Below are positions 2,482 through 61,797 of a stretch of DNA of 64,000 nucleotides, one piece after another. Both the position numbers and the translations under genes were made by a program. The stretch is from Tenacibaculum pacificus (GTDB taxonomy: Bacteria; Bacteroidota; Bacteroidia; Flavobacteriales; Flavobacteriaceae): contig NZ_CP115917.1 of the NCBI RefSeq assembly GCF_027941775.1, positions 1,625,001 to 1,689,000 on the forward strand, in the 5' to 3' direction. How positions within the stretch are numbered: the stretch's first letter is position 1; each line of letters opens with the position of its first letter. The notes beneath the pieces were generated by a model. It ran no database searches, was not told the origin of the DNA, and saw nothing but the letters and a program-made list of their open reading frames with translations.

Positions 2482-2733
2482 TATTTTCCCCATTTTATTT
2501 TATTCCAAGCTCTTTCAATGAAAAAAGTACAAAACCATTTTTGTGACTAACTCTATACTTCCTATAGAAAAAGCTAATGCTAATTCACCTGTTATTAACC
2601 AAGAAATTATAACTGTATCTATAGTACCTATTACTCTCCAACTTACAGATTTAACAAGGCTTCTAACTGGATTTTCAGAAATTTCGTTAGTCTTATTAGT
2701 TTTCTTACTTTTTATTAATTGCTCTATAATCAT
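2481..2733 (-). pseudogene. DUF2061 membrane protein, interrupted by a +1 frameshift
   Basis: This is a small membrane protein of the DUF2061 family, function unknown. The intact first frame gives 72 aa (RSLVKSVSWRVIGTID, then two hydrophobic segments) and stops at a TGA at 2517-2515. The typical family tail HERAWNKIKWGK is present in the next frame and ends in a TAA that overlaps the cysH ATG. Removing one base of the CATTG at 2520-2516 restores an 83 aa protein of normal length. A T6 run at 2526-2521 is a nearby alternative site. The gene lies in the cys operon, just upstream of cysH. It is either a recent mutation or a sequence error. Confidence 0.85.
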
Positions 2734-2853
2734 TTCAAAATACTATTTCCCTATCGGGTAACTAGGTTTTAATATTCGACAAATATATAAATTCATTTGT
2801 AATAATTAAAAAAAGTTGTCTTAAATTCACAAAATAATAAGATTTGTAATAAT

Positions 2854-3261
2854 TTATACTAAATCGGCAAGTGTATTATTTTTAAGGACTTGTAGTGTAT
2901 TATCTCTTACTTGAATCATTAATTTATGCACAGAGCAAGCATCTTCATCAGGGCAATCACTACATTTCTCATAGTAATTTAAACTAACACAAGGTAACAT
3001 TGCTATTGGTCCTTCTAAAGTTCTAATAACATCAGTCATATTAATTTCAGAAGCTTCTTTTAACATATAGTAACCACCTCCTTTACCTTTTTTAGCACCT
3101 AAAAAACCTGATTTTTTTAAAGTAAGTAATATACTTTCTAAATATTTATGTGAAATATTTTCTTCTTTTGCAATAGTAGCTACTTGCACTTTGCAACCTT
3201 GCTCTTGCCTAGCTATATAAGCAAGTGCTTTTATTCCATATTTTGTTTTTTTAGAAAGCAT
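2854..3261 (-). CDS. Rrf2 family transcriptional regulator
   Basis: A 135 aa winged-helix regulator of the Rrf2/CymR/IscR family. The N-terminal block MLSKKTKYGIKALAYIAR and the recognition helix region ISHKYLESILLTLKKSG are typical. The C-terminal part has clustered cysteines (MLPCVSLNYYEKCSDCPD, then DACSVHK), compatible with a metal or Fe-S site, though the exact spacing is not diagnostic by eye. I chose the internal ATG at 3261; an in-frame ATG at 3276 would add five residues. It sits 29 bases after metZ inside the sulfur block, so a role in sensing cysteine or sulfur supply is a reasonable inference, by analogy with CymR. Confidence 0.9.
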   Translation of the reverse strand: MLSKKTKYGIKALAYIARQEQGCKVQVATIAKEENISHKYLESILLTLKKSGFLGAKKGKGGGYYMLKEASEINMTDVIRTLEGPIAMLPCVSLNYYEKCSDCPDEDACSVHKLMIQVRDNTLQVLKNNTLADLV

Positions 3262-3290
3262 ATTACAAAAATACACTTTTTATTTAATTC

Positions 3291-4457
3291 TTAATTTTCT
3301 AGAGCCTGTTTTAAATCATTAATTACATCTACTACATTTTCTAAACCTACAGAACACCTAACTAAGCCATCAGTAATACCTACTTCTAACCTATCTTCAA
3401 CACTTAATTTACTATGAGTTGTAGATGCAGGATGTGTAACTATTGTTCTTGTATCTCCTAAATTAGCTGATAAAGAACACATTTTTATAGCATTTAAAAA
3501 CTTACGACCAGCTTCTATACCTCCTTTTACTTCAAAAGCAACAATATTACCTCCTAAACGCATTTGTTTTTTGGCGATTTCATATTTTGGGTGTGATTTT
3601 AAAAACGGATATTTCACTAAATTAACCTTCGGATGTGCTTCTAAAAACTCCGCAACTTTTAAGGCATTTTCACAATGTTTTTCTACACGAATACTTAATG
3701 TTTCTAAACTTTTAGATAATACCCATGCATTAAAAGGTGACATTGCAGGACCTGTATTTCTTGAAAATAAATAAATTTCACGGATTAAATCTGCCTTACC
3801 AACAGTTACACCTCCTAAAACTCTTCCTTGACCATCAATTAATTTTGTTGCAGAATGTATTACTAAATCTGCTCCAAAATCAATAGGATTTTGTAAATAT
3901 GGTGTAGCAAAACAATTATCTATTACTAATAATAAATTATGTTTTTTTGCTATTTTACCAAGTAACTCTAAATCAATAATATCTACACCTGGATTAGTAG
4001 GAGTCTCAGCATATAATATTTTTGTATTTGGCTGAATTAAACCTTCAATTTTTTCAACTTCTGTTATTTTAAAATAACTAGTTTCAATATTCCATTTCGG
4101 AAAATATTTGGTAAATAAAGTATGTGTTGAGCCAAATACCGATCTACAAGATACAATATGGTCTCCAGCACTTAATAAAGCTCCGAAAGTAGAAAAAACA
4201 GCTGCCATACCTGTAGCAAAAGCATATCCTGCTTCAGCTTTTTCCATCGTTACAATTTTATCTACAAATTCAGTTGTATTAGGATTAGAAAAACGACTGT
4301 ATAAATTTTTATCTTTTTCCTCAGCAAAAGAAGCACGCATATCTTCAGCATCATCAAATACAAAACTAGAAGTTACATATAAAGGTGTAGAATGTTCAGA
4401 AAACTGTGAGCGTTCTGTTTGGGTTCTTATCGCTTGGGTTTCAAAATTTTTACTCAT
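3291..4457 (-). CDS. metZ: O-succinylhomoserine sulfhydrylase-type PLP enzyme (MetZ)
   Basis: A Cys/Met metabolism PLP enzyme of 388 aa. It contains SRFSNPNT, the substrate/cofactor block ATGMAAVFSTFGALLSAGDH, the PLP-Asp region VIDNCFATPYLQNP and the PLP lysine in HSATKLIDGQGR. The C-terminal THPASTTHSKL...VRCSVGLEN block is family-typical. It would replace the acyl group of O-acylhomoserine by sulfide, giving homocysteine directly. A second, longer homologue (metY) lies at the head of the same operon. The acyl donor preference (acetyl or succinyl) is not readable from sequence. It follows the metX-thrA fusion by 62 bases. Confidence 0.9.
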   Translation of the reverse strand: MSKNFETQAIRTQTERSQFSEHSTPLYVTSSFVFDDAEDMRASFAEEKDKNLYSRFSNPNTTEFVDKIVTMEKAEAGYAFATGMAAVFSTFGALLSAGDHIVSCRSVFGSTHTLFTKYFPKWNIETSYFKITEVEKIEGLIQPNTKILYAETPTNPGVDIIDLELLGKIAKKHNLLLVIDNCFATPYLQNPIDFGADLVIHSATKLIDGQGRVLGGVTVGKADLIREIYLFSRNTGPAMSPFNAWVLSKSLETLSIRVEKHCENALKVAEFLEAHPKVNLVKYPFLKSHPKYEIAKKQMRLGGNIVAFEVKGGIEAGRKFLNAIKMCSLSANLGDTRTIVTHPASTTHSKLSVEDRLEVGITDGLVRCSVGLENVVDVINDLKQALEN

Positions 4458-4519
4458 ATTTATTTTTTTTATAAATCTAGATTATACAAAACCTAGTATA
4501 TTCAAATGACACTTAGTCT

Positions 4520-7500
4520 CTAATTGTTATTTTTTGCTAATCTTAAAATATCACCAAAAACTCCTCTTGCTGTTACATTTGCTCCTGCACCAGCCCCCTG
4601 AATAACAATTGGTTGTTCTCCATAAGACTGTGTATATATTTCAAAAATAGCATCTGAACCTTTTAAACTTCCTAATGGAGAACTTGTTGGAACAGAAACT
4701 AATTTCACCTCTAAACTTCCTTTTTCTTTAGATAAATCTCCTGACAAATCACCAATATAACGCAATACATGCGCTGGTTCTTGAGCTTCTTTTTTATCTT
4801 GAAAAGTTTTATTTAAGGCTTTTAAATTTAATAAAAATTCTTCAGATGGAGTTTCTCTAAATTCTTCTGGAATTAAATTTTCGATAATAATATCATCAAA
4901 TTCATTTTCTAAATCTAATTCTCTTGCTAAAATCAATAATTTTCTAGCAACATCATTTCCGCATAAATCTTCTCTAGGGTCTGGCTCAGTAAATCCTTGG
5001 TCAATTGCTTCTTGAAGCGTTTCAGAAAAGGCTACATCATCCGCAGAAAAAGTATTAAATAAATAACTTAACGACCCTGAAAAAACACCTCTAATTCGAG
5101 TAATATTTTCACCTGAATCATGTAATAATTTAATCGTATCAATTAACGGTAAACCTGCTCCTACATTTGTTTCGTATAAGTATGATTTATTATTTGCCTC
5201 TAAAGTGCTTCTTAATTCTTTATAAAAACTATGCGCTACTGTATTTGCTATTTTATTTGAAGATACTAAATCGAAACCTGCTTCAATTAAAGGAATATAA
5301 TTTTCAATAAAATCTCCACTAGCGGTATTATCAACAGCTATTAAGTTTCCTAAATGATGCTGTTTTGCAAAATCGATAATAGTATTTATAGATGATACTT
5401 CTATACTATTTTCTAAATCTGCTACCCAATTTTCATCAATTCCTTTCTGATTTAATAAAACCTTTTTAGAACCTGCTATTGCAAAAATATTTAACTGTAT
5501 TTTCTTTCTTTCTAATACAGATTTAGTGTTTTCTATAATCTGATTAATTAATGTACCACCAACTAAACCTTTACCAAAAATAGCTAAATTTATTTTTTTA
5601 GCAACTCCAAAAACTTGCCCGTGAATTACATTTAATGCTTTATTTAGTTGTTCTTTTTTTACAACTAAACATACATTTTTACCAGAAATAGTATTATTAA
5701 ACAATAAAGGAACTATCTGATTTTTAATTAAAGCATTATATGGTAAATGAAATTCACTTAAATCTTGACCAACAATTGATATAACAGAAACATCATCAAC
5801 AATCGATATTTGATTTACATCTTTTGTATAAAAATCACCTTCAAATTCTTGCTCTAATGCGTTAACAGCATCTTGAGCTTTATCTTTATTGATAACCAAA
5901 CCAATACCTCTTTCTGATGAACCTTGCGAAATAATACTTACACTAATTCCACTATTACTTAAAGCTCTAAAAATACGTGCATCTACTCCTACTTTACCTA
6001 ATAAACCTCTACCTTCAAAGTTTAATAAAGCTACATCATCTAAAACAGATAATGATTTTATCCCTTTTGAACTTGATTTAGATGTTATTAAAGTTCCTTT
6101 ATCTTCAGGTTTAAAAGTGTTTAAAATACGTAAATTAATATTCTTTTCTAATAACGGTACAATTGTTTTTGCATGTAAAATATTAGCTCCAAAATTAGCT
6201 AACTCATTAGCTTCAGAAAAAGATAGTTCTTCTATTTTTTTTGCATCAGCAACTAAATCAGGATTTGCTGTAAAAATACCATCAACATGTGTATAATTTT
6301 GTAATTCACCTGCATCTAAAAAATTTGCTAATAATGATGCTGTATAATTACTACCATTTCTACCTAAAGTAGTTGTTTCTCCTTTTGAATTAGAAGCGAC
6401 AAAACCTGTTACAATATTTATAACATCTTTATTATTTTTAAAGTAGGCAACAACATTATCTTTTGATGTATTTATAATTGGTTGTGCATTTCCAAAATTA
6501 TCATCTGTTTTTATTAACGTTCTAGCATCCGTAGCATTTGCTTCTATTCCTTTTTGTTTTAAAAGCTCTTCTACTGTTTTTATTGATAAAAGCTCTCCTT
6601 GTGCTAAAACCTCATCTTTTATTTTTTCACTAAAATCACCTAATAAACTAACTCCTTCAAAAAGTTTTTCTAAGCGAGTAAATTCTGATGAAAAATCAAC
6701 TAATGGTGTTAATTTTGATTGCTCATATTTAAAAGCTTCAAACTCCTCTTGATACGCTATATTTTTTGCTGATTTATTTAATATATTCTCTAATTCATCA
6801 GTAGCATTACCTCTTGCCGAAACTACAACAGCTATTTTTTCTTGATTATTTACTTTTTCTTCAATAATAGAAATTACATTACTAATGCCGTTATTTGATA
6901 ACGATTTTCCGCCAAACTTTAATATTTTCATTTTTCTTTTTTTTGAATTTGGATTAAAAATAGGAGTAATTATTTTTTCTAACTGCTCATATTCCATTAA
7001 AAAAGCATCGTGTCCGTGTACCGAATTTATCTCGTTATAAGTTACATTCGAATGCACTAATGCTAATTCTTTTTGAGTTTCTCTATTTTCTTCAGCTGTA
7101 AAAAACAAATCAGAATCAACACCAATAATATGAATATCCGCTTCTATTTTCTCTAAAATATCTAAATTATTTCCTCCTTTAGTAACATCAATTGTTTTTA
7201 ATAATTGATTCATTAATTTATAAGATGCTAATTGATAACGCTCTTGTAATTTTTTACTATGATGCAATAACCAACTTTCTACGTTAAATATTTTTTGTTC
7301 TTCATTTTTAGAACGATGAAAACGCTCTTTAAAAGATTTTGGCGTTCTATAACATAGCATTGCATGCATACGTGCATCATGCACAGGATTACTTGAATTA
7401 AGTAAAAACTGTTCTTGAATTTGACAATTAGCTATTAACCAATCAGTAGATTTCCAATCGGTAGCTATTGGTATTAATTTTTGTGTTATTTTCGGATTTA

Positions 7501-7915
7501 TAACAGCCATTTCCCAAGCAATTCCACCTCCTAAAGAACCACCTATTAAGGCAAATAATTCTTTTATTTTAAGCTGTTCTAATCCTTTTAAAAATATATT
7601 TGCTATATCTCTAGCTATAAAACCTTTATAATTATCTATTAAAAAACTATCATAACCATTTCCAGGAATATTAAAACATAAAATAGAGTAATCAGCCGTA
7701 TCAATAGCTTTGTTTTTCCCTATTAAATCTTTCCACCAGCCATCTTTTGGATTAGCAACATTACTATTACCTGTTAATGCATGATTAATTAATATTACCG
7801 GAGCAGTACCCAACTCTTTACCAAAAACCTCATAACTTAAAGGAATTTCATTAAAAAGAACACCACGCTCAGTGGTAAAATTTACAATTTTTATATGAGA
7901 TAAATTATTTGTCAA
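4520..7915 (-). CDS. thrA: Fused MetX-like acyltransferase / aspartate kinase / homoserine dehydrogenase
   Basis: A single uninterrupted 1131-codon frame with three enzymes. Residues 1-328 are an alpha/beta-hydrolase-fold homoserine O-acyltransferase: NHALTGNSN, nucleophile Ser in IGGSLGGG near 145, Asp in VDSDLFF, His in VHGHDAF. Residues from 329 are an aspartate kinase (KFGGKS, where many homologues have KFGGTS; VVVSARGNATDE), followed by ACT-type regulatory repeats (GLLGKVGVDARIF). From about 770 comes homoserine dehydrogenase (FGKGLVGG near 777; GVFSGSLSYLFNTF; GFTEPDPREDL...DVARKLLILAREL). An ATG at 6931 lies exactly at the MetX/kinase junction and could give a separate ThrA. The product converts aspartate to homoserine and activates it for the sulfhydrylases encoded on either side. 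Confidence 0.93.
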   Translation of the reverse strand: MTNNLSHIKIVNFTTERGVLFNEIPLSYEVFGKELGTAPVILINHALTGNSNVANPKDGWWKDLIGKNKAIDTADYSILCFNIPGNGYDSFLIDNYKGFIARDIANIFLKGLEQLKIKELFALIGGSLGGGIAWEMAVINPKITQKLIPIATDWKSTDWLIANCQIQEQFLLNSSNPVHDARMHAMLCYRTPKSFKERFHRSKNEEQKIFNVESWLLHHSKKLQERYQLASYKLMNQLLKTIDVTKGGNNLDILEKIEADIHIIGVDSDLFFTAEENRETQKELALVHSNVTYNEINSVHGHDAFLMEYEQLEKIITPIFNPNSKKRKMKILKFGGKSLSNNGISNVISIIEEKVNNQEKIAVVVSARGNATDELENILNKSAKNIAYQEEFEAFKYEQSKLTPLVDFSSEFTRLEKLFEGVSLLGDFSEKIKDEVLAQGELLSIKTVEELLKQKGIEANATDARTLIKTDDNFGNAQPIINTSKDNVVAYFKNNKDVINIVTGFVASNSKGETTTLGRNGSNYTASLLANFLDAGELQNYTHVDGIFTANPDLVADAKKIEELSFSEANELANFGANILHAKTIVPLLEKNINLRILNTFKPEDKGTLITSKSSSKGIKSLSVLDDVALLNFEGRGLLGKVGVDARIFRALSNSGISVSIISQGSSERGIGLVINKDKAQDAVNALEQEFEGDFYTKDVNQISIVDDVSVISIVGQDLSEFHLPYNALIKNQIVPLLFNNTISGKNVCLVVKKEQLNKALNVIHGQVFGVAKKINLAIFGKGLVGGTLINQIIENTKSVLERKKIQLNIFAIAGSKKVLLNQKGIDENWVADLENSIEVSSINTIIDFAKQHHLGNLIAVDNTASGDFIENYIPLIEAGFDLVSSNKIANTVAHSFYKELRSTLEANNKSYLYETNVGAGLPLIDTIKLLHDSGENITRIRGVFSGSLSYLFNTFSADDVAFSETLQEAIDQGFTEPDPREDLCGNDVARKLLILARELDLENEFDDIIIENLIPEEFRETPSEEFLLNLKALNKTFQDKKEAQEPAHVLRYIGDLSGDLSKEKGSLEVKLVSVPTSSPLGSLKGSDAIFEIYTQSYGEQPIVIQGAGAGANVTARGVFGDILRLAKNNN

Positions 7916-8014
7916 GATGATATATTTTAAATATAAAAACGAATGATTTATATGAATATAATTTTATTTCAAAAAAAATAAAATTCAATACATTCGTTTT
8001 ATAAAATTGTTATT

Positions 8015-9295
8015 TTATATGTTTGAAAAAGATACTTTTAAATCTGTTTTTAAGTCTTCTATATCTTCTAATCCTACTGATAAACGAATTAAGTCATTAG
8101 TAACACCAGCACTTTGTTGTGCTTCTTCGCTTAACTGTTGATGTGTTGTACTTGCTGGATGAATAATTAAAGATTTTGTATCTCCAATATTTGCTAATAA
8201 TGAAAAAAGCTTTGTATTATCTGCTATTTTCTTAGCAGCTTCATAACCTCCTTTTACACCAAATGTTACAATACCACTTTGTCCTTTTGGTAAATATTCA
8301 TCAGCTAAAGTTTTATATTTACTACTTTCTAAACCTGGATAATTAACCCAAGTTACTTCGCTTTGTGCTTCTAACCAATTCGCTAAATCCAAAGCATTTT
8401 CACTGTGTTTTTTTATTCTGATGTTTAAGGTTTCTAATCCTTGAATAATATTAAACGCATTTGTAGGACTTAAAGCACCCCCAAAATCGCGTAATCCTTC
8501 TAAAATTAATTTAAAAGTATAAGAAGCAGCTCCTAAAACATCATTATACACTAAACCATGATATCCTGCAGATGGCTCAGTAAATTCAGGGAATTTACCA
8601 TTAGCCCAATTAAAAGTTCCTGCATCAATAATTGCTCCACCTAATGAATTTCCTTGACCACCAATATATTTAGTTAACGAATGAATTACAATGTTTGCAC
8701 CATGTTCTATTGGATTTAATAAAGCTGGTGTAGCAACAGTATTATCTACAATAAAAGGAACTTCTGCCTTTTTAGCGTGTGCTGATATTTCTTTTAAGTC
8801 TAATACATCTAATTTAGGGTTTCCTAATGACTCTACAAAAAAAGCTCTGGTATTTTCTTGTACTGCTTTTCCAAAATTATCAGGATTAGAAGCATCAACA
8901 AAAGTAGTTGTAATACCTAATCTAGGTAAAGTAACATTTAATAAATTATAAGTTCCACCATATAAACTACTTGATGCAACTATATGATCTCCTGCTTTTA
9001 ATAACGTAAGTAACCCTGTAGATATAGCTGCTGTACCTGATGCAAAAACAACAGCTCCTGTTCCGCCTTCTAAACTAGCTAAACGTTCTTGTAAAATTTG
9101 ATTAGTTGGGTTATTTAATCGTGTGTAAATAAAACCTAATTCTTTTAATGAAAAAAGGTTTGCTGCATGATCGGAATCAGTAAAAACATACGATGTTGTT
9201 TGATAAATAGGAACAGCTCTTGTACCTCCTGTTTGTTTTACATCGTGTCCTGCATGCAACGCATTAGTTGCAAATTTTTGTGTTTGTGTACTCAT
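8015..9295 (-). CDS. metY: O-acetylhomoserine sulfhydrylase-type PLP enzyme (MetY)
   Basis: This 426 aa protein belongs to the long O-acetylhomoserine (thiol)-lyase subfamily. It has the start block TNALHAGHD, TRAVPIYQTTSYVF, LNNPTNQILQERLA, the PLP-Lys region VIHSLTKYIGGQG and the C-terminal HPASTTHQQLSEEAQ...LIRLSVGLED. It makes homocysteine from O-acetylhomoserine and sulfide. It is the first gene after the SAM-I riboswitch, so it should be repressed when S-adenosylmethionine is plentiful. The next gene (the metX-thrA fusion) starts 99 bases downstream, with no obvious terminator between them. Confidence 0.95.
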   Translation of the reverse strand: MSTQTQKFATNALHAGHDVKQTGGTRAVPIYQTTSYVFTDSDHAANLFSLKELGFIYTRLNNPTNQILQERLASLEGGTGAVVFASGTAAISTGLLTLLKAGDHIVASSSLYGGTYNLLNVTLPRLGITTTFVDASNPDNFGKAVQENTRAFFVESLGNPKLDVLDLKEISAHAKKAEVPFIVDNTVATPALLNPIEHGANIVIHSLTKYIGGQGNSLGGAIIDAGTFNWANGKFPEFTEPSAGYHGLVYNDVLGAASYTFKLILEGLRDFGGALSPTNAFNIIQGLETLNIRIKKHSENALDLANWLEAQSEVTWVNYPGLESSKYKTLADEYLPKGQSGIVTFGVKGGYEAAKKIADNTKLFSLLANIGDTKSLIIHPASTTHQQLSEEAQQSAGVTNDLIRLSVGLEDIEDLKTDLKVSFSNI

Positions 9296-9420
9296 TTTTC
9301 TTGTTTTTTGAAATAATAAAAAATTAAAACAAAAGTTGAATGCATCAATAAAAACTGATGTACTTACTAGAAAAATGTTATAAAGAATTATAGCAATTAC
9401 AGAGGAGTAATTACTTTTGA

Positions 9421-9541
9421 GTTATCTATCCAATTTTAGATAAATGAATCTAAAACTAGGTAGAATTTAGCACCTTCTTTGACTTAAACAAAGGGTTGCT
9501 AAGGTTTCATAGGGTCTAATCCCTCCACCTTTCTTGATAAC
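9421..9541 (-). promoter_or_regulatory. SAM-I (S-box) riboswitch upstream of metY
   Basis: Read on the minus strand from 9541, the leader shows the conserved S-box elements in order: AAGAAAGGTGGAGGGA, then AGACCCTATGAAACC, then GCAACC, then AAGGTGCTAAATTCTACC. The outer P1 helix is formed by GTTATC (9541-9536) and GATAAC (9426-9421). The element ends about 125 bases before the metY ATG. A small hairpin follows at about 9419-9400 (AGTAATTAC against GTAATTGCT) and could be part of the expression platform, although no U-rich terminator is obvious. It probably controls the whole met/cys block. Confidence 0.95.
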
Positions 9542-9601
9542 ATTGTCAATAAGTTATTGAACTTTGTGAACGCAAATATTCAATTATAAAAAGTTAATAT
9601 C

Positions 9602-10040: not shown

Positions 10041-10063
10041 TATCACAAAATCAAGAAAATTAG

Positions 10064-11299: not shown

Positions 11300-11300
11300 A

Positions 11301-37062: not shown

Positions 37063-37160
37063 AATTTCTAGCCCCGATTGAAGCATTTGTTTGAGCTCTT
37101 TTTTTGATTTTTCTTCAAAAAAAAGCGAGTGCAGAAAGCGGGAAATTGCTTCAAATAATT
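37063..37160 (-). repeat. Dispersed palindromic repeat, copy B
   Basis: This is the reverse complement of copy C with very few differences (for example CTGCAC for CCGCAC, and AAATGC for AATTGC). It contains the GAAGCAATTTCCCGC start, the poly-T/poly-A central hairpin, GAGCTCAAAC and the ATCGGGGCTAG end, plus the tail AAATTTCTGCTA shared with copy C. It lies just downstream of the VF530 stop. Confidence 0.9.
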
Positions 37161-38711: not shown

Positions 38712-38811
38712 ATTTGAAGCAATTTCCCGCTTTCCGCACTCGCTTTTTTTTGAAGAAAAATCAAAAAAAGAGCTCAAACAATTGCTTCAATCGGGGCTAG
38801 AAATTTCTGCT
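38712..38811 (+). repeat. Dispersed palindromic repeat, copy C
   Basis: TTTGAAGCAATTTCCCGC start, GCACTCGC, a central hairpin (GCTTTTTTTTGA against TCAAAAAAAGAGC), GAGCTCAAACAATTGC and CTTCAATCGGGGCTAG. With copy B it forms an inverted pair around the VF530 and gcvT genes. Copies B and C are nearly identical; copy A is more diverged. Confidence 0.9.
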
Positions 38812-46786: not shown

Positions 46787-46829
46787 AATATACTAAAAAC
46801 CTTTATCCCGAAAGTTTGAATTATTTAAA

Positions 46830-46975
46830 ACCTAGGCAGGTCTCCTGGCTTGCGTCTTGTAATTGGTCTTCCCGCTTAAAAACAGTGACTTAAAGAGTAA
46901 TTACAAGCTTAATAGCTTACAGTTGCGGGAACAGCTTCGGTATTTAATCGAATTCCCTTTTAATTTGATGTTATA
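46830..46975 (-). promoter_or_regulatory. Cobalamin riboswitch upstream of btuB
   Basis: On the minus strand the leader has the conserved elements in order: AAAAGGGAA, CCGAAGCTGTTCCCGC, AACTGTAA, GTCACTG, GCGGGAAGACC, and the B12 box GCCAGGAGACCTGCC. It lies about 45 bases before the btuB ATG. It should reduce btuB and btuG-like expression when adenosylcobalamin is present. The exact outer P1 boundary is uncertain by 10-15 bases; the arms TTGATGT/ACATCAA just upstream may extend it. Confidence 0.95.
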
Positions 46976-47022
46976 TTTTTAAACATCAAAACCTAAATTT
47001 CGCGCAAATTTATGATATTTTA

Positions 47023-47961
47023 TTAAGAATCTAGCATCAATAAATCATTATAGTTCGAAAACTTAACAGTAAGCTCACTTGATACCGAAAAATAATTCGG
47101 ATGAATCATTGCTGATAAACACTCAATACCATCGACTAAAGTACTTGCTGATGATTGTGTAAACATAGCAAAATCAGCAATAAAAACCTGTTTATTTTTA
47201 ACGGCTTTTAAAGAACTCCATTCTGGTTTATCTTCTAAAAATCGCATATCTTCCATTGTTCGTGAAATTCCGTAGCCACACGGAGCAATTATTAATATCT
47301 CTGGATTATATTTTACAATTTTACCCCAAGAAATAACAATACTATCTCCTGACGGATGCGATAATAAATCGATACCACCAGCATATCCTATTTGATGAGG
47401 AATCCAATGTCCGCAATTAAATAACGGATCAATCCATTCTAACAACATTACACTTTTAGATTGTATGCTGTTTGCTCGTTGTGTATCGACTATATTGTAA
47501 ATACGATTTTTAAGTTTTTGTACATATTTAATTCCTATTTCTTCTTTTCCCATTGCTTTTGCTATGGTTAATGCATTCTCAAAAACATCGTCTAAAGAAT
47601 TTGGAGTTATAGAAATTAAAGTTGGTTGTTTCGCTAATTTAGAAGCAGATTTTGCAACAGATTCTGTATCTATTTGACAAACATCACATACATCTTGTGT
47701 AAAAATAATATCTGGAGCAATACTTTCTAAAACAGGTTCATCAACATAATACAACGTACCTCCTTCAGCTTTTGTTTTTGAAAAAATGGTGTTAATTTCA
47801 TCACTAGTTAAAGTTTGTCCTTCTAACTTATATTTAACAGCTACCTGTTTTTCTTTTAGTGCAATTGCAGGACATTCAAATGTAACACCGTCTAAATATT
47901 CTTGTAATCCCATATCATAAATCATTTGGGTTACTGCTGGCATAAATGAGGAAACTTTCAC
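47023..47961 (-). CDS. Cobalamin-binding BtuF-like protein without signal peptide
   Basis: A 312 aa periplasmic-binding-protein-fold (class III) protein of the BtuF type. The start MKVSSFMPAVTQMIYDMGLQ, VTFECP, FTQDVCDVCQID and LLEWIDPLFNCGHWIPHQIGYAGG blocks match the 'cobalamin-binding protein' subgroup. There is no signal peptide or lipobox, so it appears cytoplasmic unless the real start lies elsewhere. It is divergent from cobU and its 3' end abuts the riboswitch. Transport partners BtuC and BtuD are not in the window. Confidence 0.87.
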   Translation of the reverse strand: MKVSSFMPAVTQMIYDMGLQEYLDGVTFECPAIALKEKQVAVKYKLEGQTLTSDEINTIFSKTKAEGGTLYYVDEPVLESIAPDIIFTQDVCDVCQIDTESVAKSASKLAKQPTLISITPNSLDDVFENALTIAKAMGKEEIGIKYVQKLKNRIYNIVDTQRANSIQSKSVMLLEWIDPLFNCGHWIPHQIGYAGGIDLLSHPSGDSIVISWGKIVKYNPEILIIAPCGYGISRTMEDMRFLEDKPEWSSLKAVKNKQVFIADFAMFTQSSASTLVDGIECLSAMIHPNYFSVSSELTVKFSNYNDLLMLDS

Positions 47962-48075
47962 TGAAAATATATTTTGAACGGCTAAATTACATAGTTATCG
48001 AGTATTATTCTCTTTTTCTAAAAAATCTTTACAATCTTTGCCGTTTAATTTATTTCTTTATTATAATTATTAATT

Positions 48076-48584: not shown

Positions 48585-49626
48585 ATGTACTCTACGGAAA
48601 TAACACCACTTTCAAACACGCTAAAAACAGCACTTCAAGATAAAATTGATTTTAAAACAAAACCAATTGGTTCGTTAGGAGTTTTAGAAGAAATTGCCTT
48701 ACAAATAGGACAAATTCAAAACAGCCTTTCTCCTACTTTATCTAAACCAAGTATTGTTGTTTTTGCTGGTGATCATGGTATTGTAAAATCGAAAGCTGTA
48801 AGCCCTTATCCGCAGGAAGTAACACAACAAATGGTGTTAAACTTCTTAAATAACGGAGCTGCAATTAACGTTTTTTGTAATCAGAATGATATCAATTTAA
48901 AAATTGTTGATGCAGGTGTAAACGCTGATTTTGAACCAAATATTAATTTGATATCAGCAAAAATAGCTAAAGGAACAAAAGATTACAGTATTGAAAAAGC
49001 AATGACCACAGAAGAGTGTTTATCGGCTTTAGATAAAGGAAAAAAACTAGTTACAGAATTACATAAACAAGGAACAAACACCATTGGTTTTGGTGAAATG
49101 GGAATTGGAAACACTTCTGCTGCTGCTTTATTAATGACTTATTTTACTGATATTTCTATTGAAAATTGTGTTGGAAAAGGAACTGGTTTAGATGATTCTG
49201 GAGTTCTTAAAAAAGCTGACATTCTTAAAAACGCACTTAATTTACATCAAAAAAATATTCAAAATCCAATAGATGCTTTGGCTACTTTTGGTGGTTTTGA
49301 AATTGTAATGATGTGCGGAGCTATGCTAGAAGCGGCATCTTTAAAAATGACTATTTTAGTAGATGGATTTATTGTTACTTCGGCTTTATTAGCTGCACAG
49401 GCTATCAATAAAAATGTTTTAGATTACTGTATTTTTTGCCATACATCAGGCGAACAAGGTCATTGAAAAAATGTTGCAATTTTTAAATGCAAAACCGCTG
49501 TTAAATATTGGTTTACGTTTAGGCGAAGGAACTGGTAGTGCGATTGCTTTTCCTATTGTAAAATCGGCTGTTAGTTTTTTAAATGAAATGGCAACTTTTA
49601 AAAGTGCAAATATATCTGAAGCTTAA
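48585..49626 (+). pseudogene. cobT: Nicotinate-nucleotide:DMB phosphoribosyltransferase (CobT), one surplus base
   Basis: It makes alpha-ribazole phosphate for the lower ligand of cobalamin. The first frame (293 aa) has DFKTKPIGSLGVLEE, VVFAGDHGI, GEMGIGNTSAAALL and the C-terminal HTSGEQGH, then stops at TGA 49464-49466. The remaining 53 residues ([20 protein letters not shown], then [16 protein letters not shown]) continue in the next frame to TAA at 49624. Deleting one T of CATTG (49461-49465) gives the expected GHEKMLQ and a 346 aa protein of normal length. Either a mutation in the strain or a base-calling error. Confidence 0.93.
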
Positions 49627-52091: not shown

Positions 52092-52111
52092 AGTCGAAAA
52101 TTTAAAAATAG

Positions 52112-53377: not shown

Positions 53378-55826
53378 TTATTCTAATAATTGAGCCATTG
53401 CTATTTTAACAATTTCAATATTTTTAAGTTTCGTTGTGTGGTTTGCTTTTTTCTGCCTTTGTACAACTTGACGCAACAAATTTACACCTACTTTATCAAA
53501 ACTATATTTTTTATACTGAATTCCTTTAGATACAATATCATCTGCTAAATTTTTGATAGCTTCCGTATTGCTACTTTTTGCTATTTTATCATAAGCTTTT
53601 TTATATAATCCTTGTGTTTTTTTATCTTGACTTAAATACATTCCCGACATTACGTTACCCGCAATAAAACTTAATTCATCTTCATCATTTTCTTCTAAAT
53701 AAATACGTGTTAAAGGATTTGCTATAATTTCTTTTACTTCTGATGGTAATGTTTTTGATTTTTGAATAGCTAAAGTTTTATCGACATAATACATTCCAAC
53801 TAAAGATTTTCCTAACACAGCATACGATTTACTTTCTAAACCTTTTTGAAAAACCGATTTTAATTCAGGATCTGTTAACTTTCCTAATGTTTCTATCGCT
53901 GCTGCTTTTACTAATGTTTTCGGGTCATTTATTGCGATTTCTTTAATTTTTGAAATCACTCTTTTTTTAGAATTTTTATTTACCAAATTGATATTCTCTA
54001 AAGCTGAAATTCTAATTTTATAAAATGAATCACTCATTGCTTCAGCTATTGCATCAAATGCTTTTTTATCATCTTGATTTTTAGCAACCTCAACTAAAGC
54101 TTCTTTTTTATGTTGATAATTATCAGCGTGTTTTAATTGATAAATATAATCGCTTAAAACTTTATTTTCGAAAATATCGCATAATAAAACTCCATCAGCA
54201 TTTACCTGAATAAACTGAGGTTGTTTTATAAAAGGAAACGTAAACGAAGCATCTTTACTCTCTACAAAAACAGTATGACGTGTTGATTTGTTATCTTCAA
54301 AAACATCAATAGTAAAAGGAAATTTAAATTCATTTTCTTGATTCTGAATAATATTGATAGTAACTGTTTTTCTTAATTTATTAAAATCGTAAGAAACATC
54401 TAACTTCGGATGCCCACTATTAAAAAACCATTGATTAAAAAACCAATTCAAATCTTTTCCAGTTACCGTTTCAAAAGCCAATCGCAATTGATGCGCTTCT
54501 GCTGTACTGTATTTATTAGTAGTTAAATACTTGTTTAATCCTGCATAAAAAGCTTCATCACCTAAATAATTACGTAACATATGTAAAATTGCGCCACCTT
54601 TATTATAGCTAACGCCATCAAACATATCTTCTTTATCATTATAATTAAATCGAACTAAATGTTTATCAAAATTTTGTCCGTTTTTATAGCCCTCAATAGT
54701 TTCTAATAAATGAGCATCGGCATTTTCTTTACCGTATTTATATTCCCTCCATAAATATTCACTGTAATTTGCAAAACTTTCGTTAACGGTTAAATTACTC
54801 CAACTTTCGGCAGTTACATAATTCCCGAACCAATGATGAAAAGCTTCGTGAGAAATTGTATCTTCATGTGTATTTTCATCAATTAATTGCCCTGGCATTT
54901 GATACGCTTTTTCTCCATGAATTACAGCCGTTGTATTTTCCATTGCACCACTTACATAATCTCTACCTACAATTTGCGCATATTTATTCCAAGGATATTC
55001 AATTCCTGAAATTTTAGAAAAGAAACCTAACATTTCAGGAGTATTTCCAAAAATCTCTTTTGCATACGGAGCATATTTTTTTTCAACATAATAATCAACA
55101 GGAATATTTTTATAAGTGTCTTTTATTATTTCATATTCCCCTACTCCCATAAAAAATAAATATGGTGCGTGTTTTTGAGTAAAATTCCAATAATCGGTTC
55201 TTGTACCGTTGTTATTTTTTTGTTGATTTTCTAACTTTCCGTTAGATAGCGTTACATATTTTGTAGGAACAGTAATATAAATTTCTTGTGAAGTTTTTTG
55301 ATTAGGTGCATCAATTGTAGGAAACCAACAACTACTTGCTTCGGTTTCTCCTTGTGTCCAAACTTGGGTTGGTTTATTTTTATCTAAACCTGTTGGATTT
55401 ACAAAATATAAACCTTTTGCCGATGTTATAGCTTTACTTCCTTTTTGTTTTACTTTTTCAGGACGTGCCGTATATTTTATATAGATAGTAAATTCTTCAT
55501 TCCTTTTATAAATACGAGGTAAATCGATAATCAATTTAAAATCATCATAATTATAAGGTAAAGATTGTTTATTCATTAAAACTTCATTAATAAGCATTGC
55601 CTTTGCATCTAACGTTACTTTAGCTGTTTCATAAAAATGAGGTTTCACTGGTTACCCATTCTTCTCCGTTTAATTGCTGATTTTTAAAATTAAAATCTAC
55701 TTTTAATTTAGTGTGAATTAAATCGTGAACTTTAGCTGTTTCTGCTCTGTAAACAGTATTTGATTGTGAAAACAACGTAAGCGTAAAAAAAACAACGAGA
55801 AAAGTAAGAACTTTTTGAAACTTCAT
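53378..55826 (-). pseudogene. M1 family aminopeptidase, one surplus base near the N-terminus
   Basis: A secreted zinc aminopeptidase. The first segment (55826 onward) has a signal peptide and the M1 N-terminal block LKVDFNFKNQQLNGEEWVT, then runs to a TGA at 55631-55629. The main frame (756 aa) continues as KPHFYETAKVTLDAKAMLI. It carries GAMENTTAVI, the zinc site HEAFHHWFGNYVT with the distal Glu in NESFANYSEYLW, and C-terminal HEAT-like repeats. Removing one base at CAGTG (55650-55646) rejoins an 815 aa protein. The smaller downstream ORF alone lacks a signal peptide. Catalytic residues are intact, so this is either a recent lesion or an error. Confidence 0.9.
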
Positions 55827-55898
55827 AAAATATTTTCGTTTAAGCATCAAAAGTAAGAAAATCTATTGGGAGACTTGTTAATGAGCCGTTAAAAAGAA

Positions 55899-55955
<57 letters not shown>

Positions 55956-55962
55956 TTTTTTT

Positions 55963-56500
55963 TTAAATTCCAAAAAGACTGCTAAACTTTTCAAAATCTA
56001 AATTATCACTATTTAACTTTGCATTTTGTAACATTTCCATAATTTTAGTAATATTCATTTTATCACCTAAAATACGAGCAATACCAACTCCCTTTTCTTT
56101 ACCATAACCAAAAGCTATAATTTCATCAATAGCATCTGCTTTTCCACTATAATAAAAAGATACATGCATATTTTCTTCTTTAAAATTTATTAGTTTCTTA
56201 TAATCAGAACTTTTTAAAATTGCTTTTAATTTCTCTTTTTCTATTTCATAAGTAACTTCATCTGAAGTTTTATAAGGTAAGCCCGTTATATTTATTTTAT
56301 GAATACTAGCTAATATTTTTTTATCATCTTCAGATGATTTATCTACTGACAACTCGAATAAATTTGTAGGAATATTAAAATTTACAAATCCTTTTTTATC
56401 TTGACTTTCTACTAAATAGCTTTGTAATGATACTTCTTTTTTACATTGAAACTGTAATAAAGGCTACTAATAGTAACAAGTATATAAATGTTTTTTTCAT
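55963..56500 (-). pseudogene. DUF4252 lipoprotein, one surplus base in the signal peptide
   Basis: The ATG at 56500 opens a signal peptide (MKKTFIYLLLLVAFITVS) that stops two codons later. In the next frame an acceptable continuation starts CKKEVSLQSYLVES and joins the long downstream frame (DKSSEDDKKILASIHKINIT). Removing the middle base of CAATG (56448-56444) gives the lipobox TVSC with Cys19 and a 178 aa DUF4252 protein. An internal ATG at 56352 would give a 129 aa form without signal and is unlikely to be the true start. The paralogous gene lies 27 bases upstream. Confidence 0.87.
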
Positions 56501-56527
56501 TCTCTTTTTATTTTTTGATACTATTAT

Positions 56528-57034
56528 TTATTTTTTATCCTTAGAAAAAGTATCTGCTAGTTTAGACATTTTATTAATATCAATAGTTCCAGTTAATGAT
56601 ACAATTACAGATTCTGGACCGCCAGTTTTAGCATTTTTATTTTTCACAAACATTAATACTTCACTAACAAAGTCTTTATTTTTAGTCGACTTCACATAAA
56701 TTTTAACACGTGAATCTTTATCTTTAATACGCATTAATTCTGTTAAATTATTTTTACTTACAGCTGATTTTACTAAATTTTCCATTTGAGTAGAAACTGC
56801 TATTTTTTCTGTTGAAAAGACTTTTAACTCTTGTAAGTCTTTTATCATATTAAAAACTTCCATAGCTTCGTTATCATCTGAATTAACATTAAATTTCGAT
56901 AAAATCTCAAAAGCATCTTTATTTACTACTACTGATGATACCTCATCAATATCTTCAAGTTTATCAAATATTGATTGTCCGAAACTTAAATTTGCTGTAA
57001 ATACTAGTGCAAATATTATTATTATTTTTTTCAT
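56528..57034 (-). CDS. DUF4252 secreted protein
   Basis: A 168 aa protein with a signal peptide (residues about 1-20, ending NLSFGQ). The DUF4252 core is visible (SIFDKLEDIDEVSSVVVNKDAFEILSKF; EMLMFVKN-type strands; LTGTIDINKMSKLADTF at the end). Family function is unknown; Bacteroidota genomes often place DUF4252 genes after an ECF sigma factor, as here. It sits 43 bases after the anti-sigma-like gene and 27 bases before its paralogue. Confidence 0.9.
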   Translation of the reverse strand: MKKIIIIFALVFTANLSFGQSIFDKLEDIDEVSSVVVNKDAFEILSKFNVNSDDNEAMEVFNMIKDLQELKVFSTEKIAVSTQMENLVKSAVSKNNLTELMRIKDKDSRVKIYVKSTKNKDFVSEVLMFVKNKNAKTGGPESVIVSLTGTIDINKMSKLADTFSKDKK

Positions 57035-57077
57035 GATCTTCTTGTTTATTAAATTCTTGGGGTTATTCTTGTTTATA

Positions 57078-57548
57078 TTAATTTACAGTCTTTATTACTT
57101 TATCTATTGTTTCTTCGTAGGTATTCAAATATTCTAGAGCTTCATTTCCTTTGTTTAAGTTATCTGAAACGGCATATAATGCTTCGTTTCCTTTGTTTAA
57201 ATTTATTGAAACCATTTGTAACGCTGTAGTAATTTCTACGAACTGTTTCCTTTGTTGATGCTCTTTATATTTTTCATTACCCACAAATAAACTTAATAAC
57301 AAAACTATTGACGCTGCTACCGATAACCATTTCCAGTTCTTCTTAGGTTTCTCAGGTTGTAACTGAATGGTTTTTGTAAACGTATCGTTTTTACTCTGTT
57401 TAAAGTAACTAAATAATATACTGTATTCTTGTAAATGCACTGCTACATTATCTGAAGTAAAGTATTTTTGTAATACTTCTTCTTCTTGCAAAGTAGTTGT
57501 TGCATTTAAGTATTTTTCTACTAATTTTTCTATGTTAGTTAACTCCAT
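57078..57548 (-). CDS. Putative anti-sigma factor, single-pass membrane protein
   Basis: A 156 aa protein. The N-terminal 60 residues (MELTNIEKLVEKYLNATTTLQ) resemble the zinc-less anti-sigma heads of Bacteroidota, followed by one membrane helix (WKWLSVAASIVLLLSLFVG) near residue 75. The C-terminus holds two near-identical 10-residue repeats (NLNKGNEALYAVSD, NLNKGNEALEYLNT). Its start overlaps the sigma factor gene by 14 bases, which supports a sigma/anti-sigma pair. Confidence 0.82.
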   Translation of the reverse strand: MELTNIEKLVEKYLNATTTLQEEEVLQKYFTSDNVAVHLQEYSILFSYFKQSKNDTFTKTIQLQPEKPKKNWKWLSVAASIVLLLSLFVGNEKYKEHQQRKQFVEITTALQMVSINLNKGNEALYAVSDNLNKGNEALEYLNTYEETIDKVIKTVN

Positions 57549-58044
57549 AGTTATGTTTTTTAATCAGTTCTTGTCTTATTGTTTTTCTTGCTCTAGATAA
57601 AGCTACTCTAACAGCAGTTGGTTTCATGTCTACCATTTTACATATTTCATCAAAATCATATTGTTCCACATCTCTTAATTGAATAATAATTTTTTGTTGT
57701 GCTGGTAATTTTTCAATCAACTGATGAACTAAACTTACACTGTCATTGTGTTCTACTTTTTTATCTAAGGGTGTTTCTTTTTCTTTATAATTAGTATGAA
57801 CCAAAGTCAAATTACTTGCTTGTTTCGATTTTAATCGATCATAACAATAATTTTTTGTCATTGTCATTGCAAATGCTTCTACATTTTTATAATCAGACAG
57901 TTTTTCTTTGTTTTTCCATAATTTAAATACTAGTTCTTGTGTCGCATCTTCCGCTTCTTCTCTCGAAACTAAAAGCCTTTTTGCTAAACGAAAGACTTTA
58001 TCTTTAAATGGCATGACAACTTTTAAAAAGTCTGATTGATTCAT
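57535..58044 (-). CDS. ECF-type RNA polymerase sigma factor
   Basis: A 169 aa sigma factor. Region 2: VFRLAKRLLVSREEAEDATQELVFKLWKNKEKL, then AFAMTMTKNYCYDRLKSK. Region 4: LPAQQKIIIQLRDVEQYDFDEICKMVDMKPTAVRVALSRARK. It heads a four-gene unit (sigma, anti-sigma, two DUF4252). It is divergent from the S41 protease gene across a 154-base gap that shows no gene. Confidence 0.94.
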   Translation of the reverse strand: MNQSDFLKVVMPFKDKVFRLAKRLLVSREEAEDATQELVFKLWKNKEKLSDYKNVEAFAMTMTKNYCYDRLKSKQASNLTLVHTNYKEKETPLDKKVEHNDSVSLVHQLIEKLPAQQKIIIQLRDVEQYDFDEICKMVDMKPTAVRVALSRARKTIRQELIKKHNYGVN

Positions 58045-58198
58045 TTTTGTAGTAGGTTAGTTTTGTAAACTTATAAAACTTTATATCTAGTGGGTTTACA
58101 TAACTACGACGAGATAGTTTTAAGTTTGTTACATCAAAAATTAAAAAAAATAATATTATTCACTAAATTGCGTTGATACTATAGCCAATATATTCCTT

Positions 58199-59665
58199 AT
58201 GAAATTACTTAAAACATCTTTTAGTACCTTTTTTTACTTGTTTTTATTGATATCAATAGTTTCTTGTAGTAAAAAAGGAGAAACCCCTAATGATATTCAA
58301 ATTCAAAGTTTTGTTTGGAAAGGATTAAATGCATTCTATTTATGGCAAGATCAAGTTACTGATTTATCTGACACACGTTTTACTAACGACCAGCAATTGT
58401 ATAGTTATTTATCGGAAACAGAAAACCCTAGTGATTTATTTTCTAATTTATTATCTTATGAAAATGAATATCCAAAAAACCCTAACAGAAACTATTCTTG
58501 GATTACTGATGATTATATTGCTTTAGAGCAATCTTTTCAAAGTATTCGTTTAACAACAGGTATGAAGTTAAAGGGAGCTAATTATTTAGATGGTTCTGAC
58601 AATTATTATGTGTATGTATATGATGTTGTAAAAACTTCAGATGCAGATATTAATGGAGTAACTAGAGGAATGCTTATTTCTGAAGTTAACGGTACACAAA
58701 TTACAAGAACAAATGTTAATTCATTACTTAATAGTAATTCATTTACCATACATTTAGCCGATTATAATATGGGAAATCCTGTTAGCAACGGTAATACTAT
58801 TTCATTAACAAGCTCTCAAGTAACTGAAAATCCTATAAAAGAAGTTAAAGTAATAAACAACGGAGCTAATAAAATTGGATATTTAATGTATAATCAATTT
58901 TCTAGTTCTTTTGATGGTGAATTAAATACAGCTTTTGCTAAATTTAAAAATGAAGCAATTACTCATTTAATTATCGATTTACGTTATAATGGTGGTGGTT
59001 CTGTGCAATCAGCCGTTTATTTAGGAAGTATGATTACTGGTCAGTTTAACAAGGAATTATTTTCTAAACAAGTATGGAACAGTAAATTTATGAAGGCAAT
59101 AACACCTGATAAACTTGAAAATAATTTTACTGACAAAATATTAAATAAAGATAGTAACGGAAATATAATTTTAGATGAAACTATTAATAGCGTTGGTATG
59201 AATACGGTATATTTTATTGTATCAGAAAATACAGCATCTGCTTCTGAATTAGTTATAAATGCTCTAAAACCTTATATTAATGTGAAATTAGTAGGTACAC
59301 AAACTTATGGTAAACACGTTGGTTCTATCACTTTATATGATTCTGATAATTTTCAACGTAATGGAGCTAACTTTAAAACAAATCATACTTGGGCAATGCA
59401 ACCTATTGTTTTAGAAATTCAGAATAAACTTGGTGAAAATAAACCTAATGGATTTATTCCTGAAGTTCTTTTAGAAGAAAACTCAGAAAACTTAGGAGTA
59501 ATTGGAGACATTACAGAGCCTTTACTTGAAAAAGCTATCGAATATATTACCGTTGGAAGCAAAGGAACTAATACTTCTAAAAAAGGATTTAATACTGGTA
59601 GTAATCATTGGAATTCATCTATAACAAATATCGATTATAACAATATGTATATTAATTTGAATTAA
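58199..59665 (+). CDS. S41 family C-terminal processing-type peptidase lipoprotein
   Basis: A 488 aa lipoprotein with lipobox LISIVSCSKKGE (Cys about residue 23). A PDZ-like segment lies near 130-190, followed by the S41 protease core: GYLMYNQFSSSF, HLIIDLRYNGGGSVQSA, catalytic Ser in SENTASASELVINAL and Lys in GTQTYGKHVGS. It probably acts in the periplasm or at the cell surface. Single gene with a strong terminator behind it. Confidence 0.93.
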   Translation: MKLLKTSFSTFFYLFLLISIVSCSKKGETPNDIQIQSFVWKGLNAFYLWQDQVTDLSDTRFTNDQQLYSYLSETENPSDLFSNLLSYENEYPKNPNRNYSWITDDYIALEQSFQSIRLTTGMKLKGANYLDGSDNYYVYVYDVVKTSDADINGVTRGMLISEVNGTQITRTNVNSLLNSNSFTIHLADYNMGNPVSNGNTISLTSSQVTENPIKEVKVINNGANKIGYLMYNQFSSSFDGELNTAFAKFKNEAITHLIIDLRYNGGGSVQSAVYLGSMITGQFNKELFSKQVWNSKFMKAITPDKLENNFTDKILNKDSNGNIILDETINSVGMNTVYFIVSENTASASELVINALKPYINVKLVGTQTYGKHVGSITLYDSDNFQRNGANFKTNHTWAMQPIVLEIQNKLGENKPNGFIPEVLLEENSENLGVIGDITEPLLEKAIEYITVGSKGTNTSKKGFNTGSNHWNSSITNIDYNNMYINLN

Positions 59666-59683
59666 TTTTCTAAATTTAATTGA

Positions 59684-59718
59684 TAAAAAAAATCTAGCGA
59701 TATTGCTAGATTTTTTTA
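59684..59718. terminator. Bidirectional terminator
   Basis: AAAATCTAGC and GCTAGATTTT form a stem with A and T runs on both sides, between the convergent S41 protease and patatin genes. Confidence 0.87.
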
Positions 59719-59735
59719 TCGATTAAAGTAAACAT

Positions 59736-60698
59736 TTATGATAATAAACTATTTTCTAAACCTTCTTCTATTTCATCATCATCTAACATATCTGGTCTAA
59801 ATTGAATCATTTTTTCGGCATCTAATGTTTTAGCATAATCATAGCCTGATTTCCACCATTTTGTCATTTTTACTTTATCAAAAACTAAAGTATTAGTTGT
59901 TAAAACTGTTGGAGTATAATATAAGTTTAATTTTACATCATGATGCTTAGCTGTAAGTTTACCAATAGTAATATTGTGTTTTTCTACGTGTTCTAATAAA
60001 AAGCCAAAAACATCTAACATCAGTGAAAATGGGTTATTTGCAGGCATTCTATTTATTTGATTTACTTCTGTTTCTAAAATTACCGCATCAATTTCTTTAG
60101 CACCTCTTAAAATGGCTTCTCTTATAGGTATTAGGCTTCCAAAACCTCCATCAGCATACTGACAGCCATTTTTTTCTAGTAAACTCATAAACGGAACGTA
60201 ATTACACGAACCCCAAATCCAATCACAAAAATCTTCATAAGTACATTCAGAAATCGCTTTATACTCTATTTTATTGGCTGTTAAATTTGAAACAGTTACA
60301 ACTACTTCTTTATTACTCTGGCGAATTTCATCATACATTTCGCGAGTAACATTATTTTTTATCAATTTTCTTAAATTTTTACTTTCTCCAAAAGTTTTTC
60401 TACCATTTAAAAAATTCCATAAAGTGTTTATATGTCGAATGTAAATTACTTTTTCGCCATGAACTACCTTAATCTTAAAAGGACTGTTACTAAAAATAGA
60501 TTTTTGATTAACATTGGTATATATTTCCTTTAAAGCATCCACTTTTTTTAACGCTAAATGCGAAACCATTAAACTTCCTGTTGATGTACCTAAAAATAAA
60601 TCATAATCTTTTTTCTTTTCTTTCATCAAATACTCAACAACACCACCTGCAAATGCGCCTTTGCTTCCTCCTCCAGAAATTACCAATGCTTTTTTCAT
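59736..60698 (-). CDS. Patatin-like phospholipase
   Basis: A 320 aa patatin. The oxyanion Gly-rich turn is in ALVISGGGSKGAFAGGVVEYL, the nucleophile Ser in FLGTSTGSLMV (GxSxG), and the catalytic Asp in YADGGFGSLIP (DGG). No signal peptide, so it is probably cytoplasmic. It would hydrolyse lipid acyl esters. Single gene, divergent from the BNR lipoprotein across 48 bases. Confidence 0.94.
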   Translation of the reverse strand: MKKALVISGGGSKGAFAGGVVEYLMKEKKKDYDLFLGTSTGSLMVSHLALKKVDALKEIYTNVNQKSIFSNSPFKIKVVHGEKVIYIRHINTLWNFLNGRKTFGESKNLRKLIKNNVTREMYDEIRQSNKEVVVTVSNLTANKIEYKAISECTYEDFCDWIWGSCNYVPFMSLLEKNGCQYADGGFGSLIPIREAILRGAKEIDAVILETEVNQINRMPANNPFSLMLDVFGFLLEHVEKHNITIGKLTAKHHDVKLNLYYTPTVLTTNTLVFDKVKMTKWWKSGYDYAKTLDAEKMIQFRPDMLDDDEIEEGLENSLLS

Positions 60699-60746
60699 AT
60701 AATTTAGATTGCTTTCACTAATTTAGTTCTGTAAAAATATCAAAAA

Positions 60747-61797
60747 ATGAAACATTTCCCTATTTTAATTCTAGTCTTATTTATTTCTTTTTCAATGTCA
60801 AAAAGAATATAGCTCAAGAAACATTAAACAAGTAAATATTCATGAATTTAAAATGGATAGTTTAGATATAAGAGCTATTAAAGTTATAAATGATAAAGAA
60901 ATTTATTATGCTTCTTCAAACGGTGAACTTGGCTACACTTTTAATGGCGAAGATTTTAACTGTTATAATTACAGATATGATTCAATTACACCAAATTACA
61001 GAAGTTTAGCTTATAATGGAACTCACTTTTTTGCTTTATCAATAGGAAATCCAGCACTTTTATATAAATACAATAAAACTGATTTCGAATTAGTTTATAC
61101 CGAAAAACATCCAAAGGTTTTTTATGATGCTATAAAGTTTTTTTCTGATAAAAAACACGGTATTGCTGTTGGTGATCCTACAGAAGAAGAAAACTGTCCT
61201 TCTATAATTTTAACATCAGACAATGGTAATACCTGGACTAAATTACCATGTTCAGCATTACCTAAATTTGAAAAAGGAGAAGCTTTTTTTGCAGCAAGTA
61301 ACACCAATGTTGCTATTATTAATAACACCGTATGGATTGCTTCGGGCGGAACAAAATCACGAATTTTAAAATCTACCGATTACGGAAACACTTGGGAGAT
61401 TTATAATACGCCAATTATCCAAGGAAATGAAACTCAAGGGATTTATTCTATTGATTTTTATGATGAACTAAACGGTATTGCTATTGGTGGAGATTATTTA
61501 AAACAAAACGATAATTGCGCTAATAAAGCAATTACTTCGGATGGAGGAAAAACATGGACAGTTGTTGCCGATAATCAAAACCCGACTTATAAAAGCTGTG
61601 TACAATATGTTCCTAATACAAATGGTAAAGAAGTCTTTGCTGTTGGAAAAACAGGCGTATCTTTTTCTAATGATAGCGGATATACTTGGAAAGAAATCAA
61701 TAAAGATAGTTATTACACAATTCAATTTTCAGATAAAAATACAGCATGGTTATCAGGTCATCAAAAATTAGGGAAATTAGTATTTAACAATCATTAA
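60747..61797 (+). pseudogene. BNR/Ycf48-like repeat lipoprotein, one surplus base in the signal peptide
   Basis: The ATG at 60747 opens a hydrophobic signal (MKHFPILILVLFISFS) that reaches TAG after six more codons. The next frame continues CQKEYSSRNIKQVNIHEFKM and joins the long frame. Dropping the middle base of CAATG (60793-60797) gives ISFSC, a good lipobox, and a 349 aa protein. A T5 run just upstream is an alternative site (ISFQC). The body has sialidase/BNR-like motifs (SDNGNTWTKL; STDYGNTWEIY; TSDGGKTWTVV; SNDSGYTWKEI), as in Ycf48-type propellers. Function unknown. The intact ATG at 60853 would drop the signal. Confidence 0.88.

Follow-up and report, generated by a model that had tools for sequence, protein, structure and literature searches.

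Why do several genes in one stretch of the Tenacibaculum pacificus genome lose their reading frame at a CANTG word, where CATG would restore it? The window analyzed here is the whole 64,000-nucleotide stretch between positions 1,625,001 and 1,689,000 of a genome that is a single contig (2,791,743 bases; completeness, 95.52). A sequence-only reading of this window, made without database searches, had proposed that five of its genes each carry one surplus base at such a word, and direct inspection found all five words at the positions it had given. As CANTG is common (103 occurrences in the window), one lying beside a frame break is weak proof alone, and orthologues were therefore used. Insertions centered on CATG are present in the deposited sequence, far beyond chance. 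With a probability of roughly 0.85, we consider them to be errors in the consensus of a long-read assembly, probably from a nanopore platform, with the genes themselves unbroken in the cell.

Insertions at the center of CATG

The nearest named genome found, Tenacibaculum piscium RT-G24 (17.2 kb of blastn pieces in total, at 83.0%), served as the reference. We compared 1.44 Mb of the 2.79-Mb genome with 1.405 Mb of T. piscium over 771,743 aligned columns, leaving out alignments shorter than 400 columns, those with >20% overlap with a better alignment, and T. piscium contigs C13, C15, and C16, which gave large repetitive matches. When flanks matched at 9/10 or better, 13 of 91 one-base insertions in T. 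pacificus lay at a CATG center, versus 0.11 expected; the figures were 18 of 194 (0.23 expected) for flanks of 8/10 and 20 of 341 (0.40 expected) for flanks of 7/10. Counted from the side of the motif, one extra base at the exact center was found in 15 of 498 conserved CATG words, with 483 intact in T. pacificus, so that only a subset is affected, as the sequence-only reading had held. No insertion at CATG was seen in the reverse direction, in T. piscium (0/483; Fisher P = 5.6e-5 for the difference). Twenty-six control 4-mers gave 56 central insertions in 46,353 pooled occurrences (Fisher P = 1.1e-15 against CATG), the highest single control being TATA with 10/2,903.

The claim of one surplus base per site holds at most sites; two-base insertions are also present, at three sites (CA[GT]TG twice, CA[GC]TG once) where T. 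piscium has CATG in two cases and CATA in one. Left uncounted were two longer insertions at CATG in T. pacificus (3 and 6 bases) and a 10-base insertion in T. piscium. Of the 33 sites that we listed, 23 were placed by nucleotide alignments whose flanks matched at 7/10 or better, and 10 came from the window, protein-level or other alignments; the latter are placed less surely, the one at 386,280 least surely. Read on the forward strand, the inserted bases were T (12), A (11), C (5), G (2), GT (2), and GC (1). Read on the CATGA strand, T was inserted at 19 of the 33 sites, and A, G, C, GT, or GC at the rest.

Frame breaks told the same story at the level of genes. We compared 1,004 T. piscium open reading frames (ORFs) from five contigs with the T. 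pacificus DNA. Among 620 orthologous genes, 586 matched in a single frame and 34 contained 38 placed breaks, 30 of them with one placed break each. CANTG was found within four bases of 22 of the 26 +1 breaks, and 3 of the 12 breaks scored −1 were the two-base insertions. Thus, CA[N]TG or CA[NN]TG accounts for 25 of 38 breaks, in 25 of the 620 genes (~4%, or about 1 in 25); the enrichment of frame breaks at CATG that had been predicted genome-wide is therefore seen in the part surveyed. The four remaining +1 breaks lie away from CANTG (one falls within a run of A); read by eye, each of the nine other −1 breaks is inside an A/T run at least five bases long or no more than 3 bases from one. The reverse comparison of 1,224 T. 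pacificus ORFs with T. piscium returned 651 single-frame matches and one switch, at 396,942 in T. pacificus, already a known site. This one-sidedness (38 breaks versus 1) indicates that the lesions are peculiar to T. pacificus within the pair. The gene-level count includes a site at 2,299,596 that is outside the list of 33, and it overlooks sites close to the ends of genes; one of these, in the phosphoribosyl pyrophosphate (PRPP) synthetase gene, was found by nucleotide alignment. Extrapolated to an assumed 2,500 genes, 25 of 620 would correspond to on the order of a hundred sites.

Within the window, the word in T. piscium that corresponds to the CATTG of cobT (49461..49465, + strand) is CATG, with flanks identical at 10/10. 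The first piece of cobT (48585..49466, +) encodes 293 amino acids, and orthologues among the matches listed have 330 to 350. A cobalamin riboswitch lies ~1.6 kb from cobT (46818-47011, − strand). The DUF2061 gene (2422..2667, −) is split over two frames around a CATTG at 2516..2520 (−): its own frame stops at ...LYFFH*, and ERAWNKIKWGK continues in the other frame. No relative of this gene was found among the loci compared by frame pairs; all 52 positions of PF09834 stand in one open frame in 15 of 22 other genomes of the genus, the other 7 being without a match. The DUF4252 lipoprotein was correctly read as broken in its Ser-Cys lipobox. Its CAATG (56444..56448, −) separates a signal peptide ending in ...AFITVSM* from the mature part, QCKKEVSLQSYLV, in another frame; the break falls between the lipobox Ser and Cys, and all seven relatives among the matches listed have VSC or TSC in one frame.

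The two other proposed sites are less straightforward. The M1 aminopeptidase gene has its CAGTG close to the 5′ end (55646..55650, −), and its main piece (53378..55648, −) encodes 756 amino acids, orthologues among the matches listed having mostly ~815. A net one-base insertion relative to T. piscium bears out the break, but T. piscium has no CATG there; the best non-self match in the protein set is labeled T. dicentrarchi (93%). At the CAATG of the BNR lipoprotein (60793..60797, +), the signal peptide and the mature part stand in two T. pacificus frames that diverge at the site. This case is the weakest of the five: tblastx frame pairs were confounded by the neighboring gene and were replaced by direct inspection of the T. 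pacificus frames. A sixth site had been overlooked: a CACTG at 47959..47963 (+), in the start codon (at 47,961) of the ORF 47023..47961 (−), where T. piscium has CATG. The spacing of tblastx pieces is consistent with a break for cobT, M1, and this sixth site. The window also holds a SAM riboswitch (9419-9543) and two Flavo-1 RNA matches on opposite strands ~1.6 kb apart (37066-37149 and 38719-38802).

One motif common to so many genes might suggest programmed recoding or phase variation, with the extra base real and either bypassed or used as a switch. A slippery codon should be in a fixed phase; the frames at the window sites place the motif in three codon phases, in agreement with the sequence-only reading. 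In addition, one or two bases may be inserted, the affected genes are functionally unrelated, and the reverse comparison revealed nothing alike in T. piscium. We regard recoding or phase variation as the least probable of the explanations considered.

Sequence context of the affected sites

All 15 conserved affected sites have CATGA on at least one strand. The rate of affected sites was 9/77 with CATGA on both strands, 6/219 with CATGA on one, and 0/202 with CATGA on neither (P = 6e-4). Sites are thus affected most where both strands carry CATGA, as expected if reads from both strands vote on the consensus. By 3′ flank, the rate was 10/63 for CATGAAA, 2/74 for other CATGAA, 3/59 for CATGAC or CATGAG, and 0/100 for CATGAT. 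Over the full list, 29 of the 33 sites have CATGAA on a strand, and the lone exception to the CATGA rule, at 79,282, is a nonconserved site. The best-scoring pattern, CATGAAA, is found at 26/33 affected versus 53/483 intact sites, and the near-best, CATGAMM, at 29/33 versus 85/483, both patterns having been picked on the data on which they were scored. The context YCATGWMAA proposed earlier came close; CATGA, with a preference for CATGAAA, on at least one strand describes the sites better.

This context bears on the possibility that the errors arose from CATG cutting during library preparation, for example, in an NlaIII-based proximity-ligation long-read library used in assembly or polishing. 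NlaIII cuts at CATG, and such an origin would center the errors on that word. Yet an artifact of this kind should ignore the next base, and none of the conserved sites lacking CATGA is affected; moreover, religated NlaIII ends give back CATG. We therefore consider a library artifact very improbable.

Two further approaches were set aside. CATG is underrepresented in both genomes (0.55 in T. pacificus and 0.69 in T. piscium), and GATC is more so (0.38 and 0.29), so that restriction avoidance does not single out CATG. A test of identical contexts in repeat copies was ruled out, as a single affected CATGA-type site was seen among the repeat differences listed. It lies in one copy of a paralogous 3.3-kb pair (2,097,269-2,100,537 and 2,118,838-2,122,108); a less clear second difference is in the other copy, and each copy is split over several frames. 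Long tandem arrays are present at 2,123,124-2,132,147 and 2,100,857-2,107,140, with periods of 300 and 315 bases and copies ~97 to 99% alike.

Consensus errors or lesions in the cell

The sequence-only reading had left two interpretations side by side, a base-calling error linked to a modified motif and a true insertion at the center of the palindrome. Our analyses favor the former and disfavor the latter. If the insertions were real, DNA breaks at CA/TG in CATGA contexts would be sealed by error-prone end joining with the addition of one or two untemplated bases, and the strain would carry recent lesions numbering on the order of 100. The varied inserted bases, their position at the exact center of the palindrome, and a flank preference such as an enzyme would have are all in keeping with this scenario.

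The identity of the broken genes speaks against it. PRPP synthetase is encoded by one gene in this genome (a second match is just 24% identical over part of its length), and this gene loses its frame near codon 12. Glutamine synthetase has two matches, and both genes are broken: GlnII at a CACTG (CACG in T. piscium), with another +1 break, and the second, which we recognize from its own sequence as GlnN, by a two-base insertion in CATG together with a −1 break beside seven T. The PRPP and glutamine synthetases would be needed for life and would lose function when out of frame. Real lesions should spare needed genes or come with decay; breaks in the sole PRPP synthetase and in both glutamine synthetases, with conservation normal, therefore point to consensus error. 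Other affected genes include uvrC, recQ, panB, bioB, bshA, a prenyl synthase gene, selO, and comEC.

Decay was not apparent among the affected genes, most of which have a single placed break. The mean identity of the best piece to T. piscium was 87.5% for affected genes (28) versus 86.0% for unaffected ones (598). All 31 mapped sites lie inside T. piscium ORFs, compared with ~91% expected from the intact conserved sites (440/483), so there is no excess of sites outside genes. Rates calculated on T. pacificus ORFs (5/15 outside) were rejected as circular, since the breaks cut those very ORFs. Breaks beside homopolymers in the same assembly also argue against true mutation, which we judge unlikely.

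One-sided, motif-specific insertions, apparently needed genes hit without decay, breaks at A/T runs, and a completeness below the 98 to 100 of eight other single-contig genomes of the genus together point to consensus errors of long-read sequencing. The errors would probably be tied to a modified CATGA-type motif, a modification that we infer from their context. In the mechanism that we propose, a methyltransferase of the strain would set a DNA modification at or near CATGA-type sites; the modification would distort the signal, so that the basecaller adds a base, mostly T on the CATGA strand; and the extra base would survive in the consensus wherever it is supported by enough reads of both strands. 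The genes would be intact in the cell.

There are precedents for such errors. In the excerpted text of one report, Dcm motifs (CCWGG) made up ~70% of consensus errors with then-current nanopore basecallers in one Klebsiella pneumoniae set (PMC6591954), and in that of another, the errors were confined to specific instances of methylated motifs (PMC12392509). The present case resembles these Dcm- and other methylation-linked errors, as those excerpts describe them, in the short motif that concentrates errors beyond chance, in the partial occurrence, and in the homopolymer errors alongside; it differs in that one or two bases are inserted at the center of CATG in a CATGA context, at a modification that is itself putative. 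The literature matches listed included no account of CATG insertions or of this genome, and the excerpt of PMC11649196 contained nothing decisive.

Several observations weigh against consensus error at a modified motif. The affected share is only 3% for conserved CATG and 16% for CATGAAA words, and the flank preference of a nuclease could look alike. The motif-linked errors in the excerpts of PMC6591954 and PMC12392509 are substitutions or of unstated kind, none being an insertion at CATG. At the PRPP synthetase and GlnII sites, the break is plain, but T. piscium has CACG, so that both sites would have originated from CATG only by supposition, and the PRPP synthetase site lacks CATGA. The downstream frame of the latter gene has a TTG at the break, which leaves its loss of function presumptive. 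GlnN and GlnII each have a second break away from CANTG. At 28% GC, A/T runs are frequent, and −1 breaks may lie beside them by chance. Finally, the search for a CATG-type methylase gene suggested by the sequence-only reading turned up several methyltransferases (D12, HsdM/HsdS, Type ISP/IIG-like, and C5), none of which was identified as CATG specific.

Candidate modifying enzymes and consequences

The Type ISP/IIG-like protein, encoded near 1.281 Mb, is a lead for the modifier of CATGA-type sites, not an assignment. It is at least 1,073 amino acids long and combines, in one chain and both over cutoff, an N6-methyltransferase domain (PF02384) with a C-terminal specificity domain of Type ISP (PF18135); at its N terminus, HSDR_N scores below its cutoff (E = 0.0035). 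Its best sequence match in the PDB is 7lo5, which we take to be DrdV. According to excerpts of two reports, DrdV is a Type IIG restriction-modification enzyme that recognizes CATGNAC and places 6mA (PMC6430315, PMC10201449). The affected motif CATGA resembles that target, but CATGAAA does not fit CATGNAC, and the 7lo5 match covers only the catalytic domain and one C-terminal stretch.

In a prophage-like region (1,824,338-1,825,818), a D12-class methyltransferase gene adjoins a thymidylate-synthase-like gene. A search of three relatives yielded no D12-family match, and the T. pacificus enzyme matched no NCBIfam model at an E value of 0.001. The two genes may possibly form a phage base-modification pair, of a thymidylate-synthase-family protein and an adenine methyltransferase. 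NlaIII-type methyltransferases target CATG and thus share the word found at the affected sites; none was recognized here, the D12 enzyme lying in the prophage-like region and having no NCBIfam match at that threshold. Type I HsdM/HsdS genes lie near 1.380 Mb. A C5 methyltransferase gene near 1.892 Mb (1,890,201-1,892,891), with an N-terminal helix-turn-helix, is split over two frames, and a run of eight A occurs shortly before the first frame ends. The protein encoded next to it (470 amino acids), which matched nothing in Pfam, NCBIfam, or the PDB, may serve as its restriction partner. Neither PF01555 nor DndC turned up in the genome, other modification families not having been searched.

If the insertions are consensus errors, annotation, pseudogene counts, completeness scores, and metabolic predictions (e.g., glutamine auxotrophy) made from this genome would be wrong, ~4% of the orthologous genes tested reading as broken at one motif in this single-contig genome, the one analyzed for its species. 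More generally, a motif that may be modified can be spotted from frameshifts alone, even without the raw signal, which suggests a filter for other long-read genomes. That a modified CATGA-type motif makes sequencers insert bases, and thus marks the target of an uncharacterized methyltransferase of T. pacificus, is likelier than real mutation.

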